Notes under the pieces: model-generated
Databases searched by the model: none
The model's input: only the letters and a program-made list of their open reading frames with translations
What the model was told of the DNA's origin: nothing
Part shown: positions 2,702 to 49,173 of the stretch, piece after piece
Layout of the letters: every line of letters begins with the position of its first letter
Numbering within the stretch: position 1 is the first letter of the stretch
Position numbers and translations under genes: made by a program
Source: a virus
Length of the DNA stretch: 56,882 bases
Direction: 5' to 3' (one strand)
Virus record (IMG/VR): IMGVR_UViG_3300035136_000021
Coordinates: 1 to 56,882 of that record

Positions 2702-3095
2702 TTGTGGATTAATTTGCAAAGGTAGTAAATGTAAAAATTATAAAAATTGCACATTATTAAAAAAAAAAAGAAAGGATGTAATTAATATGAAAAAAATAAC
2801 TATGAATAATAAACAATACTGGGAATATAATAAAAATTATTTTGAATGTTCTAAATATGAAGAATCAAATGTTCTGAATATATCAAAAACTTTGATCAAT
2901 TGTATTAATTGTGAAAATTGTGAAAATTGTAAAGATTGTAAAGATTGTAAAGATTGTGAATATTGTGAAGATTGTGAAGATTGTGAAGATTGTGAAAATT
3001 GTTATTATTGTGAAAATTGTTATTATTGTGAAAATTGTGAATATTGTGAATATTGTTATGATTGTTATGATTGTTATGATTGTTATAATAATTAA
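2685..3095 (+). CDS. Cysteine-every-third-residue repeat protein
   Basis: The C-terminal half has 21 consecutive C-x-x triplets (CEN, CKD, CED, CYY, CEY, CYD...) encoded by a 9-bp satellite. Two starts are credible: TTG at 2685 (136 residues, AAAGGAG site) and ATG at 2787 (102 residues, GAAAGGATG site). The part between them is also Cys-rich (CGLICKGSKCKNYKNC) and may be a separate small zinc protein fused by slippage in the A-run just before 2770. No family is recognised. A metal-binding or disulphide-stacked solenoid is conceivable. The repeat is also open in another frame (MKIVKIVKIV), which I treat as a shadow. Confidence 0.55.
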   Translation: MKKLINCGLICKGSKCKNYKNCTLLKKKRKDVINMKKITMNNKQYWEYNKNYFECSKYEESNVLNISKTLINCINCENCENCKDCKDCKDCEYCEDCEDCEDCENCYYCENCYYCENCEYCEYCYDCYDCYDCYNN

Positions 3096-3174: not shown

Positions 3175-3741
3175 ATGGATAAATATATAGGAACAAAATT
3201 AATTGAAGCAAAACAAATGAATTTAGGGGATTATAATAAATACAAAGGTTGGACTATTCCTGATAATGAAAACCCTGAAACAGAAGGATATCTTGTAAAA
3301 TATTCTGACTCTTATGAATCTTGGAGTCCTAAAGATGTTTTCGAATATAGTTATAAAAAATTAAATATGAAAACGGATATCCCCGAAATGTTACAACATG
3401 ATTTAATTACATATGATAATACTTATATATCACATGATGAAGAATTATTTAATGCTCCAAATAATTATTTAATTCATGAAAAAAACAGTAAAAGTGGTTA
3501 TGATATATTAGCAGGAATACATTTCCAAGAAGGACCTGTCAAAGTACATGGCTTAAACGGTATATTTATGGAAGATTTACTAGCTATTGTTATCGACAGA
3601 TTATATAAATTTCAGAAAAGTGAATTTAAGTGCCGAGAAAATGCAATAGTTATTACAAAACTGGAAGAATCGTTAATGTGGTTAAGAAAGAGAACGTTAA
3701 ATCGAAAAACAAGAGGAGTTCAAGGAACTTATAAAGTATGA
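3175..3741 (+). CDS. Gp49/Sf6-66 family protein with Acb2/Tad1-like hairpin domain
   Basis: A 188-residue two-part protein. Residues about 3-62 match the N4 Gp49/Sf6 gene 66 family (PF13876): YIGTKLIEAK, YKGWTIPDNENPE, GYLVKYSD, SWSPKDVFEYSY. Residues about 115-188 resemble the hairpin domain of the anti-defence sponges Tad1 and Acb2: HFQEGPVKVHGLNG, LLAIVIDRL, CRENAIVITKLEESLMWL, KRTLNRKTRGVQGT. Tad1 and Acb2 trap cyclic nucleotide signals of Thoeris and CBASS. The LEESLMW stretch recurs in the small gene at 20605. The domain assignment is from memory of family patterns; the sponge function is inferred. Confidence 0.65.
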   Translation: MDKYIGTKLIEAKQMNLGDYNKYKGWTIPDNENPETEGYLVKYSDSYESWSPKDVFEYSYKKLNMKTDIPEMLQHDLITYDNTYISHDEELFNAPNNYLIHEKNSKSGYDILAGIHFQEGPVKVHGLNGIFMEDLLAIVIDRLYKFQKSEFKCRENAIVITKLEESLMWLRKRTLNRKTRGVQGTYKV

Positions 3742-11873: not shown

Positions 11874-12413
11874 ATGAAATGTAAATGTTGCAAAGAAGAT
11901 AAAAACCCACTAATCAATATACACGATGAATACTTGTGTTTGACATGTTTTATTAATTTATATAATTCACATAACAATTCTTTAAACTCTTTAGATTCTT
12001 TAATATCTTTAGATTCTTTAGATTCTTTAGATTATTTAAAATCTTTAGATTCTTTAGATTCTTTAGAAATTTTAAAAATATATGTATCTAATATTACAAA
12101 AGTATTAAAAACTTTAAATGATTTAAAACTTAACATATCTAAAAAAATAAAAAATGATTATGAACAATCAAAACAAGCAGATATAAAAATATCAGATCAT
12201 TGTATCATCAGATACTTTGAACGTGTATTAAATTATGATATAGAAGATATAAAAACAAAAATAATAACAAATAATGTAAAATATAAATATCACGAATTGG
12301 GTTTAAATAGTAATAAAATTGAAATCGATAAAGATTTTTCGGTTTTGATAAAAGATAATATAGCCATAACAATATTAAAAAATGAAAAAAGAGAGGGGGA
12401 GGATATTAAATGA
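11874..12413 (+). CDS. Zinc-motif protein with LDS repeats and a conserved phage C-terminal domain
   Basis: A 179-residue protein in three parts. The N-terminal zinc motif is KCKCCKEDK...YLCLTCF (CxCC, CxxC). The middle (about 35-65) is made of LDS/LDSLDS triplets encoded by a TTTAGATTC satellite. The C-terminal domain has ISDHCIIRYFERVLNYDIEDIK...FSVLIKDNIAITILK and matches a small phage family with an 'ISDHAxxRYxERV' helix followed by a sheet, DUF4258/RelE-like in outline. The function is unknown; the C-terminal part may bind RNA or DNA. The repeat probably varies in length among relatives. Confidence 0.6.
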   Translation: MKCKCCKEDKNPLINIHDEYLCLTCFINLYNSHNNSLNSLDSLISLDSLDSLDYLKSLDSLDSLEILKIYVSNITKVLKTLNDLKLNISKKIKNDYEQSKQADIKISDHCIIRYFERVLNYDIEDIKTKIITNNVKYKYHELGLNSNKIEIDKDFSVLIKDNIAITILKNEKREGEDIK

Positions 12414-17501: not shown

Positions 17502-17520
17502 TATATGCTTCATCTTTATT

Positions 17521-17567
17521 CACAAGGAGACTCCCGCTTCTAAAGCTGTGAGAGGAATTGTGACTAC
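17521..17567 (+). mobile_element. Structured end-like element E2
   Basis: CACAAGGAGACTC, a small hairpin (GCTT-CTA-AAGC), then AGAGGAATTGTGACTACT. The outer CACAA/TTGTG pair matches CGCAA/TTGCG in E3 with a compensating base change, and AGAGGAATTGYGACTACT is shared, so the structure is conserved. It resembles IS200/IS605 terminal hairpins. It overlaps the start of a terminator, so it forms the 3' end of the 16267-17501 transcript. Confidence 0.4.
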
Positions 17568-17595
17568 TCTTAAATTCCTTAAGAGTTTTTTTTTT
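17566..17595 (+). terminator. Terminator after zinc-ribbon gene
   Basis: ACTCTTAA-ATTCC-TTAAGAGT followed by nine T. Closes the left arm transcripts before the desert. Confidence 0.9.
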
Positions 17596-19829
17596 ACCTT
17601 CAATCAATCTAATAACTTGATTCTTTAAATGTATGTTATTTTAAATATACAGGTTCTTTGATTTGTATAGTCTTATGTCGATTTGGAACATACTGTAAAT
17701 TACAGAAATTAGGTGATGTAAAAATTTAGCATGTATATTTCCAATGTATAAAAATGGTCATAAGTATCGTTTAACACATATTACTAAACATGTTAATAAA
17801 AAACATTTGAGATATTGAACAAATACAAAAAATTTAGGCAAATTTTTTGCCTGTTACTAATACCTTACATTATACCGTTATAATCCTTACTATTACTAAG
17901 TTTAGAGATTTGTCAGCTAACATAAGCAGGCATTCTTTAGGCACCAATATACATATCGGTCAAAAATTAGCTACCGTCATTACTATCTTATAGAGATCAG
18001 GCATTTTAGGCATAAAATATTAAAGTCAGCTAGCCAGAAAAAACACCCTAATTTTTTTTTACATTATCAAATTATATATTTATTCGTAGAAAATGCCTAA
18101 AATACCTTAGGGTATTGTACAATAGTGATAATCAGTCTTTAAACGGGTTTTGTCATTTGCCTAAAAATGCCTGTCACCTATAGGTGACGAGGTCTGTATA
18201 CCTGTAATGACGATGGCTAGAAGGTAATTAGGTACTAAAAAAACTTAGGCAATTTTTTTGCCTAACTATGCCTAGAGTAGTCATAATCATTAATTGGGCA
18301 AGGGATCAAAAAGGTTCAAAAAAGATTTGTAAAACAATATTGATTAATAGTCAAAAAACTAATACAAAATAGTCAGGTTAAAAATTTGCCTAAAAGTATT
18401 TAAAAAAGTTAGGCAAAAAATTTGCCTAACTGTGCCTAGAGTAGTTATATCAATTGATTTAATGGGTTTTAAGATATTTTGTTTCATATAATATTGATAT
18501 TTAGAAATTAATTTTTAAATATTGATATGGGCCTTTAAAGCATGATATTACTTATTTAAAGTATTTAGTGTATAAAATATTGATTTAGAATTTAAATTCT
18601 AAATATAAGATTCTAGGCATATTTTTTTGCCTAATTTTTAATCGTGATTTTTAAAATTTTTAAATCAAAAAGATAAAATTGCTTTAAGACCTTTAGTATC
18701 AATAGATTTAAAGAATTTAAGTACTTTTTTTCAATTGTATCTAAAGATTCTATAATTTTTCGTATTTTTAATATAATCCAGTAATATCAATACCGTCAAG
18801 GTTTTATAAAAGTTAATTTAAATTAAATTAGATATATGCAAAACACTACTCGTTTTTTAATTTTTTAATATATTACGACTTTATGACATGGACATCATAG
18901 AGACATAGCGTTAGTTTAACTGTCATTCCATGTAGTGAATTGCTGACATAGATATTTAAAATAACTTTACCATATTTTGTTAATCCAATTCTTAGCTTCC
19001 TTTGAATCTTTTAGGATCTTTGACATTTTATGTATTTCCGAATATTTTACAATTTAATCTGTTTCCAATAATAGGTGATTGACATACACGAATTCAGATT
19101 ACTTTTTTACTTGATAAATTTGTAAATATAACGCCTTACCAAATGTTTTGTTTATCCACTAATAATTGGAAAAAAAAACTTCCAATTCTTGAAACGCTGA
19201 TTATTCAAAATACAAATAAAATTAGTGACACAAAATTTTCATACTAATAATGAACTTTTGTTTTTTAGAATGGCTATGTAAAATCATGTTAAAAACAACA
19301 ATTCTTAGCTTCCTTTTGATTTTAGTGACTTATAGATGTGTAAAAAATATGTTACTAAAATTTGTAGAAAAAAAAAAATACCATCGGGGGGTATGCTGGT
19401 ACGAACCATAATCACTTAAAAAAAAAATATAGTTTTTAAAACTGACAAAGTACTTTAAGACCAGTGATAGTAATGGTTCTAGAGATCATGTGTAAATAAT
19501 TACCAATTGGAAAACATGGTAATTATTTCAATCAAAAGTATACAAGACGTTCCAAATATTTCCAACGGTTTTACTGGCTTACAGCGATTTAGTTATATTT
19601 AAATATTCAAATATTCAAATATTTGAATATTTACAGTTTGAGGATACTTTTGTAATAAAAATATAGTAAATTAAGTAAATAAAAAACGACTTTTAAAATG
19701 ACAAAATATACGTACTGATATCACTAGTTTACATGTACATGGTCGTGGGAAACCTTGTTACAATCAGACATGTAAGAGCTAAAAAAACTTACTTTTTTTA
19801 ACGCACACGTTTGTTACCATATATTAGTA
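17596..19829. repeat. Gene desert of dispersed repeats, copy 1
   Basis: No credible gene. It holds about 18 TGCCTAA/TTAGGCA motifs, several as hairpins (e.g. AGGCAAATTTTTTGCCT near 17838 and TAGGCAAAAAATTTGCCTA near 18411). A longer direct repeat occurs at about 18240-18288 and 18403-18450. Degenerate GATATCAATAGATTCAAAG copies lie at 18440-18472, 18681-18717, 18777-18807 and 19450-19490. It also has a 16-bp palindrome (18173-18188), a 12-bp stem (19494-19528) and a GC-rich islet near 19384-19412. The same families fill 51960-53310. Confidence 0.7.
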
Positions 19830-19857
19830 TTGACAAATATTTTAAATATTGTATAAT
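19830..19857 (+). promoter_or_regulatory. Promoter facing the parS region
   Basis: TTGACA 19830-19835, 16-nt spacer, TATAAT 19852-19857. It lacks the TTTTAG spacer end. No gene follows before the palindrome at 19970, so it may make a short RNA. Confidence 0.5.
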
Positions 19858-19969
19858 AAAAGGTTTGTTAAAAATTAGTTAATTTTAAAATACTATTTTA
19901 TTAAAAAGTATGATATAATGAAAAAAAATTAAAATTTGTCGTATAATAAGTTAAGATTATGTTGGACAA

Positions 19970-20002
19970 GGAAGCTAAGAATTATTAGAATTCTCAGCTT
20001 CC
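19970..20002. repeat. GGAAGCTAAGAATT palindrome, imperfect copy
   Basis: GGAAGCTAAGAATT, loop ATTAG, AATTCTCAGCTTCC; 14-bp stem with one mismatch. Related to the perfect 24-bp palindromes at 20813, 20903 and 53315. It sits 43 bases before the first parS site. Confidence 0.8.
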
Positions 20003-20044
20003 TTAAAATAATTTAAATGAAATAATAATAATACTAAAAAAAAT

Positions 20045-20060
20045 TGTTTCATGTGAAACA
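20045..20060. promoter_or_regulatory. parS-like ParB-binding site, copy 1
   Basis: TGTTTCATGTGAAACA, one base from the bacterial consensus TGTTTCACGTGAAACA. The flanks ATTG...TATAGCATTTAG match those of copy 2 at 21325. No parB gene is in the window, so host ParB would have to bind. Confidence 0.8.
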
Positions 20061-20068
20061 TATAGCAT

Positions 20069-20502
20069 TTAGTTCCCTTAGTTCCCTTAGTTCCCTTAGT
20101 TCCCTTAGTTCCCTTAGTTCCTTTAGTTCCCTTAGTTCCCTGAGTTCCCTGAGTTCCCTTAGTTCCCTTAGTTCCCTTAGTTCCCTTAGTTCCCTTAGTT
20201 CCCTTAGTTACTTTAGTTCCCTTAGTTACTTTAGTTCCCTGAGTTCCCTTAGTTCCCTTAGTTCCCTTATTTCCCTTAGTTCCCTGAGTTTCTTTAGTTC
20301 CCTGAGTTTCTTTAGTTCCTTTAGTTCCCTGAGTTTCTTTAGTTCCCTGAGTTTCTTTAGTTCCTTTAGTTCCCTGAGTTCCCTGAGTTCCCTGAATTTA
20401 TTTAGTTCCCTTAGTTCCTTGAGTTCCCTGAGTTCCCTGAGTTTATTTAGTTCCCTTAGTTCCTTGAGTTCCTTGAGTTCCCTGAGTTTATTTAGTTCCT
20501 TT
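20069..20502. repeat. 9-bp satellite TTAGTTCCC, about 48 units
   Basis: Tandem TTAGTTCCC with variants TGAGTTCCC, TTAGTTCCT, TTAGTTACT, TGAGTTTCT and TGAATTTAT. It begins 9 bases after parS copy 1. The complementary unit (GGGAACTAA) resembles the GGGACTAA units of the array near 21100, so the two arrays face each other. It is open as a poly(Leu-Ser-Ser) frame, but that frame would start inside parS and has no ribosome site, so I do not call it a gene. Confidence 0.9.
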
Positions 20503-20515
20503 TATCATACTATAT

Positions 20516-20544
20516 TTGACAATACGTTTGTATTTTAGTATAAT
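20516..20544 (+). promoter_or_regulatory. Promoter with conserved spacer (P7)
   Basis: TTGACA 20516-20521, spacer atacgtttgtattttag, TATAAT 20539-20544. Drives the Acb2-like gene at 20605. Confidence 0.85.
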
Positions 20545-20604
20545 ATAAACAATAAGTTAACAGATGTAATTTTCATGAAAATTCTGATACTGGGAGTGTT
20601 GATT

Positions 20605-20808
20605 ATGGATTTAAGTATTATTGAAAAAAGTATGACAAATATTAAACCAACAGAAGAACAAATTAAAAAAATTGAATCTTTACGTGAAGATTATAAAAGT
20701 TTAGCAAAATGTGTTAATGAAATATCTAAAGATAGCAGATATAAAAGTTTAGCTATTACAAGTTTAGAAGAATCGTTGATGTGGGCTGTTAAAAATATAT
20801 TGTTGTAA
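20605..20808 (+). CDS. Acb2-like small protein, candidate cyclic-nucleotide sponge
   Basis: A 67-residue all-helical protein (ATG 20605 behind GGGAGTG; the upstream ATG at 20575 lacks a site). The pattern EEQIKKIESLREDYKSLAKC...SRYKSLAITSLEESLMWAVK resembles phage Acb2: a helix with EI..I..L...L..L, then RW.aIA.TdLQ.GfMAl.RAV. Acb2 oligomers trap cyclic di- and trinucleotides and block CBASS. LEESLMW is shared with the hairpin domain at 3175. It has its own promoter and a palindromic terminator and lies between the two parS sites. Homology is inferred by eye. Confidence 0.55.
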   Translation: MDLSIIEKSMTNIKPTEEQIKKIESLREDYKSLAKCVNEISKDSRYKSLAITSLEESLMWAVKNILL

Positions 20809-20812
20809 TAAA

Positions 20813-20836
20813 GGAAGCTAAGAATTCTTAGCTTCC
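20813..20836. terminator. Perfect 24-bp palindrome (GGAAGCTAAGAA type)
   Basis: GGAAGCTAAGAA followed by its exact complement, then TTTATTATT. It begins four bases after the Acb2-like stop codon and probably terminates it. Confidence 0.85.
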
Positions 20837-20902
20837 TTTATTATTAGGTGATGTTAGTTATCATACATCATGTCAAAAACATTAAATAATGTGAAGTATT
20901 AA

Positions 20903-20926
20903 GGAAGCTAAGAATTCTTAGCTTCC
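20903..20926. repeat. Perfect 24-bp palindrome, second copy
   Basis: Same sequence as 20813-20836 but no T-run follows; the GGGACTGAG array starts five bases later. A terminator role is less clear here, so it may have a structural or binding role. Confidence 0.9.
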
Positions 20927-20930
20927 TTAG

Positions 20931-21269
20931 TACTGAGACCTGAGGGACTGAGACCTGAGGGACTGAGACCTGAGGGACTGAGACCTGAGGGACTGAGACC
21001 TGAGGGACTGAGACCTGAGGGACTGAGACCTGAGGGACTGATGAACTTATGTGCTGATGAACTTATGTGCTGATGAACTTATGTTATGTGCTGATGGTAC
21101 TAAGGGACTAAGGGACTGAGACCTGAGGATTTATGTGCTGATGGTACTAAGGGACTAAGGGACTGAGACCTGAGGATTTATGTGCTGATGGTACTAAGGG
21201 ACTGAGGGACTGAGGGACTGAGACCTGAGGATTTATGTCCTGATGGTACTAAGGGACTGAGGGACTGAT
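20931..21269. repeat. Compound satellite of GGGACTGAG-type units
   Basis: It starts with seven 15-bp units ACTGAGACCTGAGGG, then three GATGAACTTATGTGCT units (one altered), then four longer blocks built of GATGGTACTAAGGGACTAAG, GGGACTGAGACCTGAGG and ATTTATGTGCT. The units resemble the reverse complement of the left array (20069-20502). The region is clearly richer in G than the surroundings and strand-biased. It ends 56 bases before parS copy 2. Confidence 0.9.
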
Positions 21270-21324
21270 GATTGTAATAAGAATGCATTTGATAACACCG
21301 ATTTATTGTAGTAGTTTTTTTAAT

Positions 21325-21340
21325 TGTTTCACGTGAAACA
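21325..21340. promoter_or_regulatory. parS site, perfect consensus, copy 2
   Basis: TGTTTCACGTGAAACA, the exact consensus of bacterial chromosomal parS sites bound by ParB/Spo0J. Flanks (ATTG before, TATAGTATTTAG after) match copy 1. Confidence 0.9.
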
Positions 21341-21360
21341 TATAGTATTTAGGAAGCTGA

Positions 21361-24177: not shown

Positions 24178-25710
24178 ATGGAATATCCTTATCCTACTAA
24201 ATATAATGATACATGGGAACTTGAAACCATAACCGTACGTGATATCTTTTGGCAAGCTAGTAAAAAAGAACGTATTGAACTTGCTAAAAGTAATCCATGT
24301 ATATTTGGTGAACAATATATAAAACCTTGCATTAAACAATGGATTTATAATACAGCTAAACATCAGTATTATATGCTGTATGAAGCATTGACTAATGACA
24401 ATATTGTAATTCATATCCCGATGGAACATGCAAAATCAACATGGTTCAGTTTAGTTTTACCATTGTGGTTTTTGATCAATGATCGAAACACTTATGGTTG
24501 TATATTGTCTAATACAGCAACACAAGCAACTGGATTTTTATCTGCTATAAAATGGCATATAGAACATAATGAAAAATTTAGAGAGGATTTTCCAGAAATA
24601 CGTCCTGATTATAAATCTAAATGGGCGGAAAATGAGATAAATATTATTCGAGATAAGGATAAACAAAGTAAAGATTATACCATGGTTGCAAAAGGGACAG
24701 GTAATGCTATTCTGGGAGCAAGATTTGAGTGGATTATAGCCGATGATATTTTAGATCTTGAAAATACAGCAACTGAAATCCAAAGAAATAAAGTGAGAAA
24801 ATGGTGGAATCAAACTGTAGATTCTAGAATTATAGAAGGAGGTCGAAAAATAATCATCGGGACATTGCAACATGATAAAGATTTGTTAGTTGAATTAGGT
24901 GAAAAAAAAGATATTTATAAATATATTAATTTAAAAGCATTATATAACAATAAAATTCCATTATGGGAAGAACAATGGAGTTTAAAAAGATTATTGTATA
25001 AAAAAGCTAGTATTGGAATTTTAGATTTTAACAAGACTATGCAAAATGACCGGGAATCTACACAAAATAAATCACTGGATCGTAAATGGTTAAATTATTA
25101 CGGTCCAACAGAACATTATAACTTTAAGATTCATAACCCTAATGTTAGAATATACATAGGTATAGATCCAGCGATAGCTGACGACAAGACAACTGCGGAA
25201 AAAAGACGATTAGATAAATTTGCTCTAATGGTTACTGGTTTCGATTTGACATCAAAGTTGATTTTTGTATGGGATTATTTACAAGGGTACTTTACATTTC
25301 CAGAACAGATTGAAATTATTGATAAACAATATAAAAGATATAAAGAAATTAATGTTGTAAAGGGTATAGGCATAGAACAAACTGCTTATCAAAAAGCGTT
25401 AAAACAACAGGCGTTTTTATTATCTTCACTACCTCCTATAAGAGGTGTAAATACAGGTACATCAAGTAAAGCAACAAGAATTGATAGTCTAGGCGTGTAT
25501 TTTCAGTCTAAAAGAATTTATGTCAAAAGATCTCATGATAGCTTGATAGATGAATTCGTGAGTTATGAACCAGGTGGGTTATCACCTAATTTATTAGATG
25601 CACTGTGCATTATAATAACAATGATCACAGGAGTATCTACTATATCAGATATAAAAGTACATACTAAAAATATTTTTAAAAATGAAAGGAGTTTTATAAC
25701 ACAATGGTAA
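24178..25710 (+). CDS. terL: Terminase large subunit
   Basis: A 510-residue packaging motor. ATPase: Walker A PMEHAKST (81-88, of the PxEHxKST kind), Walker B WIIADDI (about 184-190). Nuclease: GIDPAIADD (about 327-335), GIGIEQTAY and a C-terminal SPNLLDALC (acidic residue of the third site). It packages DNA into preformed heads and makes the cuts. The layout fits Mu-like/headful terminases. It overlaps the following AT-hook gene by seven bases. Confidence 0.9.
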   Translation: MEYPYPTKYNDTWELETITVRDIFWQASKKERIELAKSNPCIFGEQYIKPCIKQWIYNTAKHQYYMLYEALTNDNIVIHIPMEHAKSTWFSLVLPLWFLINDRNTYGCILSNTATQATGFLSAIKWHIEHNEKFREDFPEIRPDYKSKWAENEINIIRDKDKQSKDYTMVAKGTGNAILGARFEWIIADDILDLENTATEIQRNKVRKWWNQTVDSRIIEGGRKIIIGTLQHDKDLLVELGEKKDIYKYINLKALYNNKIPLWEEQWSLKRLLYKKASIGILDFNKTMQNDRESTQNKSLDRKWLNYYGPTEHYNFKIHNPNVRIYIGIDPAIADDKTTAEKRRLDKFALMVTGFDLTSKLIFVWDYLQGYFTFPEQIEIIDKQYKRYKEINVVKGIGIEQTAYQKALKQQAFLLSSLPPIRGVNTGTSSKATRIDSLGVYFQSKRIYVKRSHDSLIDEFVSYEPGGLSPNLLDALCIIITMITGVSTISDIKVHTKNIFKNERSFITQW

Positions 25711-26000
25711 AATTAAACAAAATACAACTTAAAGAAATTATAGATTTAGGTAGAGGAATTGAAAATTTAGAAAAAATTAAAGAAATAACGAAGTATCAAA
25801 AAAATGGCGTTGAATTAACTGAAATGTATAAAAATATTAGAGAACAATTGAGTCAAGAAATGTTGAATATTTATTATCAAGAATCTAAAGATGCTTTAGA
25901 ATCTAAAGAATCTAAAGAATCTAAAGAATCTAAAATACCTAAAGAATCTAAAATACCTAAAGAAAGAAAGAAACCAGGTAGACCAAAAACTAATGAATAG
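25704..26000 (+). CDS. AT-hook protein between terminase and portal
   Basis: A 98-residue protein. Helical N-terminal 60 residues, then ESK/IPK repeats (ESKESKESKES, KIPKESKIPK) and a C-terminal AT-hook RKKPGRPKTNE (GRP core flanked by basic residues), which binds the minor groove of AT-rich DNA. Coupled to terL by overlap. It could help the terminase recognise this AT-rich genome or be a small-terminase-like factor. The satellite inside it is TCTAAAGAA. Confidence 0.65.
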   Translation: MVKLNKIQLKEIIDLGRGIENLEKIKEITKYQKNGVELTEMYKNIREQLSQEMLNIYYQESKDALESKESKESKESKIPKESKIPKERKKPGRPKTNE

Positions 26001-39180: not shown

Positions 39181-41895
39181 ATGGCAAGTTTAGGTGAATT
39201 AATGTTACGTTTAACACTTCGAGGTGCATCTAATGTAACATCAGGATTAAACAGTGTTATGGGAAGTTTAGGTGGAATTGTTCCTATAGGTCTTAAAGCA
39301 GCTAAAGTCTTAGGTGAGATCGCTTTAGCAGGTATCAAAACAGCTATGAAATTTGATCAACAAATGTCTAGAGTTAAAGCTATATCAGGAGCTACCGGGG
39401 ACGAATTTCAACAATTAAGAGACAAAGCACTAGAAATGGGATCAAAAACAATGTTTACGGCATCAGAAACGGCTCAAGCGTTTGAATACATGGGTATGGC
39501 AGGATGGAAAACATCAGATATGATGAGCGGTATTAGTGGTGTAATGAATTTAGCCGCAGCATCTGGTGAAGATTTAGCACTCGTATCTGATATAGTGACC
39601 GATGGAATAACAGCGATGGGTCTTACTGCAAAAGATACAGATATGTTTGTTGATAGTTTAGCTGCAGCAGCAACTAATAGTAATACAAATATTGCCAAAA
39701 TGGGAGAAACTTTCAAATACGCTACACCATTAGCAAATAGCCTAGGATATAATGTAAAAGACTTAGCGGTAGGGATTGGTTTGATGGCTAATGGTGGAAT
39801 TAAAGCAAGTCAAGCAGGTACAAGTTTGAGGATGGGATTGAAAAGATTAGCAGCACCACCAAAAGCAGCAGCAGCAGCGATGGATAAATATGGTATATCA
39901 TTAAAAGATGCAAATGGTAAAATAATGCCGATGTCTCAATTGATGGAACAATTAAGAGGTAAATTAAAAGGTTTGTCTAAAGATGAAAAGATTTCAGCAG
40001 CATCTGCTATTTTTGGAGCTAACGCTATGAGCGGATGGTTAAATGTTATTAATGCATCTGATAAAGATTTTAATAAATTAACTAAAGCTTTGCAAAATAG
40101 TGACGGAGCTGCGGCTAAAATGGCAGAAACAATGCAAGATAATCTTGCCGGTCAAATTACAATAATAAAATCTACAATTGAAGGATTGTTAATAAAAATT
40201 GGGGATCAATTTACTCCAATTTTGAGAGAATTGGCTAAAGCTTTACAAGTTGTTGGTGATTATTTAAATACAAATTTTGAAACAATTTTAATGAGTATTC
40301 ATGATTTAATCCATGGTTTAATTGTAAATGGTTTTCAACCATTTCGAGAAAATGTTTTAAATTTATTTCCACCTGAAATGAAAAATACTGTTAATAATAT
40401 TATTAATAAAATCATTGAATTTAGAACAACTTTAGGTAATGTAGTAAATGCTGTTATGAACTTTTTAGCTCCTATCGGTCAAATGTTCAAGGATACTTTT
40501 ACTGCTATAGATTGGACACCTATTTTAAATGGGTTTAATAGAATTAAAGAAAGTGTCCCGTCCTTATTAAATATTTTAAAATTATTAGGTGTGGTTTTAG
40601 GAATAATAGTAGCTGTGATATTGGGGGTAGTAGTTGGTGCTGTTAATGCTTTAATAGCTGTCTTTGATAATGTAATTGGTATGATTGTAAATGTAATAAA
40701 TATATTTACATCATTAATTGATATCATCGTTGGTTTAGTGACTGGTGATTTTGAAACATTAAAACAAGGGTTTATGAATTTATTTGATAGTATAATAAGT
40801 TTAGTAAATAATTTCAAAGATTTAGCACTTGATTTGATTTTTGGATTTGTCGAAGGAGTTATTCAATTTTTCATGTCGTTGTATCATGCATTGGTCGGAG
40901 GTTCTATTATTCCAGATTTAGTTAATGGAATCATTACATGGTTTACTAATTTGAAAGATAAAGCGATTAATCTTATAAATAGTCTGAAAAATAAATTAAT
41001 AAACATATTTAACACCCTTAAAACAGGTGTTACAAATATTATAAATAAAATAAAATCAACAATAATTAATATTTTTAATAGTATAAAAAATAAAGTAGGA
41101 AATGTTATAAATACTCTTAAAACTAATGCAATTAATAAGTTTAATAGCCTTAAGTCAAGTGCAGTAACTGCAATAAGTAATCTTAGGAATAATGTAATTA
41201 ATAAGTTTAATAGCCTTAAATCGAGTGCAGTAAATGCAATAAGTAATCTTAGAACTAATGCAATTAATAAATTTAATAGCCTTAAATCGAGTGCAGTAAA
41301 TGCAATAAGTAATCTTAGGAATAATGTAATTAATAAGTTTAATAGTCTTAAATCAAGTGCTGTAAATGCAATAAGTAATCTTAGGAATAATGTAATTAAT
41401 AAGTTTAATAGCCTTAAATCAAGCGCCGGAAATGTAATAAATAATTTAAAAAGTTCAATAAGTTCTAAATTTAGTACTTTGGCTAGTTCCGCTTTGAAAT
41501 GGGGATCAAATATAATAAATAATTTTGTTTCAGGGCTTAAAAGCAAATTAAGTTCTGTTAAAACTATAGCTTCAAATATTTCATCGACAATTTCAGGATT
41601 TATTGGATTTAAAAGTCCTACTAAAGAAGGAGCTGGGAGATTTGCTGATGAATGGGCACCAAATTTAATGGATATGTTTATTGATGGAATTAATAATTAT
41701 AAAGGTAAATTAAACAATGTGATGTCAGATATTAGTAATAATATGGGAAATGGATTATCTAATGTAGGTTTAAATACAACAGGTAATAAATCAGCTATAA
41801 TTAATATATATGCTGATAGTTTGACGAATGGTAAAAAAGTAGGTCAAGTTTTGGTAAAAGAATTAAATCGTATGGGTGTGAGAACTCATAAATAA
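39181..41895 (+). CDS. Tail tape measure protein
   Basis: A 904-residue protein, the longest gene of the tail module. The N-terminal 350 residues match the tape-measure core (ISGATGDEFQQLRDKALEMG, TMFTASETAQAFEYMGMAGW, LVSDIVTDGITAMGLTAKDT, SLRMGLKRLAAPPKAAAAAM). Hydrophobic helices lie at about 460-550. Residues about 630-770 hold five near-identical 22-residue repeats (KFNSLKSSAVNAISNLRNNV). It sets tail length and leaves through the tube at infection. RBS GAAAGGAGGG. Confidence 0.9.
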   Translation: MASLGELMLRLTLRGASNVTSGLNSVMGSLGGIVPIGLKAAKVLGEIALAGIKTAMKFDQQMSRVKAISGATGDEFQQLRDKALEMGSKTMFTASETAQAFEYMGMAGWKTSDMMSGISGVMNLAAASGEDLALVSDIVTDGITAMGLTAKDTDMFVDSLAAAATNSNTNIAKMGETFKYATPLANSLGYNVKDLAVGIGLMANGGIKASQAGTSLRMGLKRLAAPPKAAAAAMDKYGISLKDANGKIMPMSQLMEQLRGKLKGLSKDEKISAASAIFGANAMSGWLNVINASDKDFNKLTKALQNSDGAAAKMAETMQDNLAGQITIIKSTIEGLLIKIGDQFTPILRELAKALQVVGDYLNTNFETILMSIHDLIHGLIVNGFQPFRENVLNLFPPEMKNTVNNIINKIIEFRTTLGNVVNAVMNFLAPIGQMFKDTFTAIDWTPILNGFNRIKESVPSLLNILKLLGVVLGIIVAVILGVVVGAVNALIAVFDNVIGMIVNVINIFTSLIDIIVGLVTGDFETLKQGFMNLFDSIISLVNNFKDLALDLIFGFVEGVIQFFMSLYHALVGGSIIPDLVNGIITWFTNLKDKAINLINSLKNKLINIFNTLKTGVTNIINKIKSTIINIFNSIKNKVGNVINTLKTNAINKFNSLKSSAVTAISNLRNNVINKFNSLKSSAVNAISNLRTNAINKFNSLKSSAVNAISNLRNNVINKFNSLKSSAVNAISNLRNNVINKFNSLKSSAGNVINNLKSSISSKFSTLASSALKWGSNIINNFVSGLKSKLSSVKTIASNISSTISGFIGFKSPTKEGAGRFADEWAPNLMDMFIDGINNYKGKLNNVMSDISNNMGNGLSNVGLNTTGNKSAIINIYADSLTNGKKVGQVLVKELNRMGVRTHK

Positions 41896-48020: not shown

Positions 48021-49173
48021 TATTTAACTCCTTATCTTTAGTTATTTTTGTTCTATTCCCATAAGATTCTAAAAACCCTTGATTCTTTAAATCATTAATG
48101 TATTTAGAAATTTCTCTTTGTCCTATTTCTAAATTTTCAGAACTTTTTTTAACACCTGGAATTATTGAATTTTTATTATTTTGTTTAATGTATTCAATAT
48201 ATTTATCTTTATTTGTTTGTTTGTTTAATATTATTACATTATTTTTTTTAAGTTCTTTAGATCCATTAAGTTCTTTAGATCCATTAAGTTCTTCAGATCC
48301 ATTAAGTTCTTCAGATCCATTAAGTTCTTTAGATCCATTAAGTTCTTTAGATCCATTAAGTTCTTCAGATCCATTAAGTTCTTCAGATCCATTAAGTTCT
48401 TTAGATCCATTAAGTTCTTTAGATCCATTAAGTTCTTCAGATCCATTAAGTTCTTCAGATCCATTAAGTTCTTCAGATCCATTAAGTTCTTCAGATAACA
48501 TTTTAGTACTATACATTAATATTTGTAATATAGTACCAATTAATAAAAATAATAAAAATATCAAAGTATTACTTTTAATATTTGTTATTTCTTCTAATTT
48601 TAAAATACTATTAGAAATACCTGTTATTTTTATTTTTTTAACAACTGTTTTTTCAGGTTCTTCAAGTTCATTTAATTTTAATTGTATAGATTCTTTATAA
48701 TCTATTAATTTTTGTTTTGCTTGGTCATATTGTTCAATTATTTTTTCTTTTTTTTCCCAACTAGGTATTTGATAAATTTTAATATATTCAGTTATATCAG
48801 GATAATTATTTATATCTTTTTTAGCATCATTTAAATCAATTTTTAAAGCTTTTTTTTCTTCTATATATATTTTATATTTAGGATTTTTAAAGGTCTTATA
48901 TTGACTTTTAAATGCATTATCAATGATATTAATACCATTAGATACAAAACCAAATAAAGAAATTAATGTTGCAAAAAAACAAATTATAATCATTAAAAAT
49001 TTTAACTTAATATTCTTAATATTCTTAAGTTCATTAATATATAACCACATTGATAATTCTAAAATAATAATAACAATAACTAAAATCCAATGTATTTCAA
49101 TATAAAAAGATATACTGAAAATTAAACTAGTAAATAATACTATTATAGATAATATTTTAAAAATATAAGACAT
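48010..49173 (-). CDS. Membrane-anchored winged-helix protein with ELNGS repeats
   Basis: A 387-residue protein. Three transmembrane helices in the first 80 residues, a charged coiled-coil part (about 95-190), and a fourth membrane helix (TLIFLLFLLIGTILQILMYS, about 203-222). Then come 13 hexapeptides EELNGS/KELNGS and a C-terminal winged helix (EIGQREISKYINDLKNQGFL). The end resembles the C-terminus of the FtsK-like protein (RTTINKMREELKNQGYLE). It would hold DNA at the membrane. Promoter P8 carries a 16-bp inverted repeat operator. Confidence 0.6.
   Translation of the reverse strand: MSYIFKILSIIVLFTSLIFSISFYIEIHWILVIVIIILELSMWLYINELKNIKNIKLKFLMIIICFFATLISLFGFVSNGINIIDNAFKSQYKTFKNPKYKIYIEEKKALKIDLNDAKKDINNYPDITEYIKIYQIPSWEKKEKIIEQYDQAKQKLIDYKESIQLKLNELEEPEKTVVKKIKITGISNSILKLEEITNIKSNTLIFLLFLLIGTILQILMYSTKMLSEELNGSEELNGSEELNGSEELNGSKELNGSKELNGSEELNGSEELNGSKELNGSKELNGSEELNGSEELNGSKELNGSKELKKNNVIILNKQTNKDKYIEYIKQNNKNSIIPGVKKSSENLEIGQREISKYINDLKNQGFLESYGNRTKITKDKELNNVK

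Follow-up and report, generated by a model that had tools for sequence, protein, structure and literature searches.

Bacteria use parS, a short DNA tag, to hand their chromosomes to daughter cells, and ParB (Spo0J) is present in nearly all Bacillota. How phages that neither integrate nor carry partition genes escape loss at cell division is mostly unknown. Two described elements make use of a ParB protein that they do not encode. On SGI1, two sequences imitate the parS of the IncC plasmid; the ParB of this plasmid binds SGI1, and its ParABS stabilises the element (PMC10954446). As PMC9437464 states with reference to Meijer et al. (2005), Spo0J helps to bring the DNA of phage phi29 into spores.

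The stretch of DNA analysed here, hereafter the window, is a phage contig of 56,882 bases (56.9 kb) from IMG/VR. A preliminary description had reported two host-type parS sites in it, with matching flanks that argued against chance, and that observation is borne out. The sites, with one and zero mismatches (Table 1), are the only matches to TGTTTCACGTGAAACA at up to three mismatches in the 56,882 bases scanned. At this tolerance 0.14 matches are expected, and two were reached in none of 100 dinucleotide shuffles; Markov models (orders 1-3, trained on the window) predict 4e-6 to 8e-6 exact copies and, for the T variant, 4e-5 to 5e-5. With the shuffles and an expectation of about 1e-5 exact copies, a chance origin is ruled out, and the window thus holds the 16-bp palindrome and a near variant above chance level, as expected of universal chromosomal-type parS. 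Site 2 is seen again in an independent contig (G001), an identical 27-kb fragment of the same phage, which starts too late, at 21134, to confirm site 1; the latter is known from the window assembly alone. We also considered that the repeats might be hairpins or terminators, and rejected this because their DNA folds (z of -0.9 and -1.8) are weak beside those of true palindromes (z of -5 to -9).

The matching flanks belong to a 31-nt repeat block, AATTGTTTCAYGTGAAACATATAGYATTTAG, whose copies are 94% identical, in direct orientation and 1,280 bp apart. Among 2.9 million viral contigs, the 29-nt core of this block is present only in the window phage (the window and its 27-kb fragment). A 23-nt query of parS plus flank against 84,980 genomes gave four unrelated matches and no known chromosomal parS context, so that neither the origin nor the host of the block could be identified from it; a block copied from a known segment of a host chromosome was rejected on the same grounds.

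Along the + strand, an ORF-poor region with a motif cluster is followed by a hairpin, parS 1, a minisatellite and a gene of the Acb2/Tad1 type, and then by two palindromes, G-rich arrays, parS 2, a T-rich stretch and genes up to the terminase at 24178. Because of this order, the parS sites form the outer edges of one 1.3-kb segment, in which two G/C-skewed minisatellites stand around the Acb2/Tad1-like gene. The motif cluster could be a replication origin, judging by its iteron-like look. The palindrome after the Acb2 stop codon is probably a bidirectional terminator, and the one at 20900..20929 looks like one as well.

Table 1. Features of the parS-bounded segment and its neighbourhood, in window coordinates
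Feature	Position	Strand	Remarks
ORF-free stretch of 2.5 kb (cutoff 60 aa)	17502..20043		Adjoins parS 1
11 TTAGGCA/TGCCTAA motifs (23 in window), iteron-like	17834..18634		Candidate replication origin or control region
Imperfect palindrome	19968..20004		40 bp upstream of parS 1; same family as those at 20806 and 20900
31-nt repeat block, copy 1 (parS + TATAGCATTTAG)	20042..20072	+	Repeat family D15
parS site 1, TGTTTCATGTGAAACA	20045..20060		One mismatch to consensus, at the central C (T variant)
Minisatellite, about 48 x 9 bp, TTAGTTCCC on + = GGGAACTAA on -	20069..20499	-	Directly after parS 1; G-rich on -
77-aa gene, Acb2/Tad1 hairpin family (anti-CBASS/anti-Thoeris-like)	20575..20808	+	Pfam PF24729, E=4e-14; between the arrays
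38-bp perfect palindrome	20806..20843		Directly after the Acb2 stop codon; DNA fold z=-8.65
Second perfect palindrome, family of 20806..20843	20900..20929		From sequence and DNA fold
G-rich arrays (ACTGAGACCTGAGGG; GGGACTAA/GGGACTGA-type 8-bp units)	20932..21268	+	G-rich on +; end about 55 bp before parS 2
31-nt repeat block, copy 2 (parS + TATAGTATTTAG)	21322..21352	+	Repeat family D15
parS site 2, TGTTTCACGTGAAACA	21325..21340		Exact consensus, perfect 16-bp palindrome

Both arrays of the segment look telomere-like, G-rich in opposite strand sense (GGGAACTAA on -, GGGACTAA/GGGACTGA on +), and their G3 runs, 5-6 nt apart, are quadruplex-prone. Minisatellites inside genes are unusually many window-wide, with periods in multiples of 3 (9, 18 and 66 bp), for example at 2908-3083, 11977-12067, 25879-25964, 41100-41452 and 48248-48496, the last being an ELNGSE/ELNGSK array. 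Perfect palindromes of 26-42 bp lie at 357, 3811, 6324, 10350, 11043 and 12971, mostly at gene ends, and are probably terminators. A second, weaker Acb2/Tad1-like C-terminal stretch is found at 3175-3741. The early region also encodes an RyR-domain protein (2327-2701; Pfam E=3.5e-12), and since RyR domains occur in bacterial defence contexts too, a counter-defence role is possible.

The window encodes a terminase (identified by its protein matches), a Mu-type portal, a tape measure protein, an amidase, a SNF2 helicase, an Enc34-type ssDNA-binding protein, a DNA polymerase, a primase-helicase, an FtsK/SpoIIIE-like ATPase, and RHH, Cro/C1-type and HTH_17 proteins; it has no tRNA and no Rfam match. 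The host is probably a low-GC member of the Bacillota, because the nearest proteins come from Bacillota phages (terminase from Bacillus and Weizmannia, amidase from Geobacillus, Lysinibacillus and Bacillus, the Acb2-like protein from Paenibacillus); a clostridial host is possible. No prophage relatives were found by terminase alignment among 84,980 genomes. The contig ends (1-375 and 56776-56882) share a 103-bp overlap, and since this consists of a 17-bp minisatellite repeat (TTGCTACAAAATATTCT), circularity is suggested, not proven. With RHH, Cro/C1-type and HTH_17 proteins at hand, the palindromes might be operators of a phage-encoded regulator that resemble parS by coincidence. This is highly improbable, as an exact 16-bp match to the universal host motif is expected only about 1e-5 times and the enrichment of the 16-mer extends to phages whose regulators are unrelated (see below).

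Six-frame searches of the window found no match at E <= 1 to ParB_N (PF02195), HTH_ParB (PF17762), AAA_31/ParA (PF13614), phage integrase (PF00589) or resolvase (PF00239), and control genomes gave matches in each of these profile searches. The preliminary description had seen no ParA, ParB or integrase gene, and a ParB, ParA, integrase or resolvase overlooked by eye can be dismissed as well. The window therefore has neither the parA nor the parB of a phage-plasmid with its own ParABS. It does lack a tyrosine integrase and a serine recombinase, as would a non-integrating phage-plasmid and, equally, a lytic phage. The combination of parS-like sites with no ParA and ParB of its own is that of an SGI1-like, cis-only hijacker.

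We consider it moderately likely that the two sites form a cis-only centromere, which recruits host ParB, together with ParA/SMC, to position or segregate the phage DNA. Host ParB (Spo0J) would form a CTP-dependent clamp, loaded at the two phage sites, and spread over neighbouring DNA; via ParA (Soj) and SMC, the extrachromosomal phage genome would be tied to the system that positions the host origin and nucleoid. The outcome would be a better-than-random partition of a non-integrating phage-plasmid state, managed with no phage-encoded partition system or, alternatively, capture into the forespore if the host sporulates. Each of these steps can occur, since SGI1 and phi29 serve as precedents. 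We infer that ParB binds, that it recruits ParA/SMC and that the phage gains from this; the pattern is real, and its function likely but unproven. Arguing for a centromere, both sites bound one segment beside the iteron-like region and share the 31-nt block; arguing against it, parS is missing from six related contigs (G002-G007) and site 1 has a central mismatch.

The preliminary description had proposed conservation of both sites in related phages as a check. The outcome is mixed: the sites are absent from the six related contigs, but the two among these with overlapping ends (G004, 56.6 kb, and G005, 61.5 kb) are not close relatives, because their terminase identity is only about 66-68%. 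G004 is probably complete, with a terminal overlap of 144 bp that is free of repeats, and the 106-bp overlap of G005 lies inside a repeat. Both share the gene plan of the window, and upstream of the terminase each has a similar non-coding region that contains GGCA/TGCC-type motifs; by eye, the counterparts of the motif cluster are GGGCA/TGCCC in G004 and AGGCA/TGCCT in G005. The palindrome family of 19968..20004 is conserved in both, with AAAGGAAGCTAAGAACGTTCTTAGCTTCCTTT in G005 and an imperfect copy in G004. More generally, the form AAGGAAGCTAAGAA(TT or CGTT)C... is common to the window and G005 and imperfectly present in G004, and a homologue of the Acb2-like protein lies elsewhere in G005. 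However, no parS at up to three mismatches was found in either genome, in the fragments G002, G003, G006 and G007, or, more distantly, in the 50 kb read of each of Bacillus phage BSP7 and Weizmannia phage Youna2. Single-protein searches of viral contigs with the primase and the polymerase gave no matches, and primase alignment added just one close relative, G005.

Because these relatives keep the region yet have no parS, the sites are, as far as the compared sequences go, lineage-specific, and the segment would most simply be an acquisition by the window lineage into a conserved, origin-like place. Conservation of the sites within the family, as in an SGI1-like element, is thus not seen, and a parS function would be neither ancestral nor essential in the group. 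The absence argues against an essential family function, not against usefulness in the window lineage. It would also suit a neutral passenger, a functionless parS fragment taken up from a chromosome or some other element that became duplicated in a repeat-rich, recombination-prone region; the region is indeed full of minisatellites, and the copies share their flanks, as a duplication would leave them. On the other hand, the flank is unlike known chromosomal parS contexts, and the 16-mer is enriched across unrelated phages, often in several copies with different flanks, which points to repeated selection. Because of this general enrichment we regard a passenger as unlikely.

The enrichment was seen in a first survey. 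Allowing C or T at the centre, parS was found in at least 120 IMG/VR stretches, on contigs that may be fragments or may include host flanks or host DNA in prophage contigs, whereas the control ACAAAGTGCACTTTGT, a single alternative palindrome of the same composition (parS read backwards), was found in one stretch of the whole collection. The exact motif is present in 85 of the IMG/VR matches listed, in 16 of them two to five times. ParB_N was absent (E<=0.001) from 46 of the 50 parS-bearing IMG/VR records examined. The isolate phages of INPHARED gave 358 matching records and 1,024 places, counts in which related isolates recur, palindromes are counted on both strands, and some matches are partial or rest on flank letters; the control matched eight records, none of which covered its 16-nt core. 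The near absence of the control palindrome shows the size of the parS enrichment, and the survey suggests that many unrelated phages carry host parS. For the isolates, ParB status was taken from reading some annotations.

The carriers include phages of Listeria, Lactobacillus, Arthrobacter, Gordonia, Microbacterium, Bacillus and Enterococcus, as well as the Pecentumvirus LMTA-94 (Herelleviridae), phi29-like Salasmaviridae and the gokushovirus SpV4, so that parS is reported across tailed phages of several families, inoviruses and one microvirus. For example, the inovirus bajarodino virus 6 (PQ006135.1; 5,910 bp, from rodent faeces) has six exact parS sites, spread round the genome and with flanks all different, and is a clean test case for ParB hijacking. 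The phi29-like Bacillus phage TBA3 has four TGTTCCACGTGAAACA sites over its genome, and Enterococcus phage Athos carries a pair of exact and T-variant parS, as the window does. In three IMG/VR contigs of 6-12 kb (L025, L066 and L082), which may be phage or host DNA, three to five exact parS are crowded into about 0.7-1 kb; a profile search found no ParB_N in these contigs.

The preliminary description had further suggested that the phage rides on the host ParB system. This fits the non-random sites and the lack of an own ParA, ParB or integrase, and such use of host ParB is plausible because parS without ParB recurs across unrelated phages. We tentatively propose, at a little less than even confidence, that carriage of parS without ParB is a general strategy which phages have evolved repeatedly, and by which host ParB-CTP/SMC, drawn in by cis sites, would position, organise or transmit viral DNA. 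The window would be one new instance of it, with sites that enclose an anti-defence gene and quadruplex-prone arrays beside a putative origin. A literature search, thin in its coverage of subscription journals and weak as evidence of novelty, returned no report of host parS as common in phages.

Phi29-like phages, Pecentumvirus and gokushovirus SpV4 belong to groups usually described as strictly lytic. Because many parS isolates fall in such groups, plasmid-like lysogeny is not the sole reading, and it has a serious competitor in a role in organising DNA, in silencing or in spore capture. Host ParB might be recruited for something other than inheritance, such as SMC loading, compaction or placement of replicating DNA, long-range silencing of neighbouring genes by spreading ParB, or titration of ParB away from the chromosome in lytic growth. 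Plasmid partition is unlikely in LMTA-94, phi29-like phages and SpV4, and in the window ParB that spreads from the sites could silence the anti-defence gene between them; but two copies would remove little ParB, and the position beside an origin-like region suits partition at least equally, which leaves such a role somewhat unlikely. Quite unlikely, in our judgement, is entrapment of the phi29 kind alone, in which parS/Spo0J would take the phage genome into the forespore of a sporulating host and no vegetative plasmid state would exist. The precedent itself (in the cited passage on phi29), the sites of TBA3 and the origin of the nearest structural and lysis proteins in phages of spore-formers are in its favour. 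However, the Spo0A-box core TGTCGAA occurs three times in the window vs twice in each parS-less relative, which is no signal, and the related BSP7, which encodes a putative small acid-soluble spore protein, is free of parS at up to three mismatches in the 50 of its 55 kb that were read.

If host parS is common in phages, ParB/SMC would be a host factor for many of them, which can be tested by standard ParB assays in laboratory strains. The motif would then also hint, from sequence, at carrier-state, plasmid or spore-borne lifestyles of metagenomic phages. The wider pattern is worth following even if the window phage is ordinary, because at least 120 stretches stand against one in IMG/VR, and 358 records against none with the full control core among the isolates.

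Several known systems come close. Chromosomal parS, in the Livny 2007 consensus as PMC7383237 uses it, is identical to TGTTTCACGTGAAACA; the window copy, by contrast, is on a phage contig, with flanks that match no close chromosomal context. Phage-plasmids with their own parABS (P1, and mycobacteriophages of cluster A such as RedRock; PMC7157519) likewise have no integrase and a centromere on the genome, but they encode ParA and ParB beside a private parS (PMC7157519), whereas the window encodes neither. As with phi29, which exploits host Spo0J in the cited account and whose relative TBA3 has parS-type sites, we are dealing with a phage without ParB; unlike phi29, which is small, linear and protein-primed, it is a tailed phage of 57 kb that encodes a DNA polymerase, a primase-helicase and an FtsK-like ATPase. 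Like SGI1, it is a mobile element that has two sites in cis but lacks a cognate ParA/ParB; the sites match the ParB of another replicon, and the proposed gain is stability. SGI1 mimics a plasmid ParB site, with binding and stability proven, while the window has universal chromosomal parS on a phage, for which binding and stability are predicted. The claim for this phage is plausible as a new variant of a known trick, and the wider enrichment of parS is the more interesting outcome.
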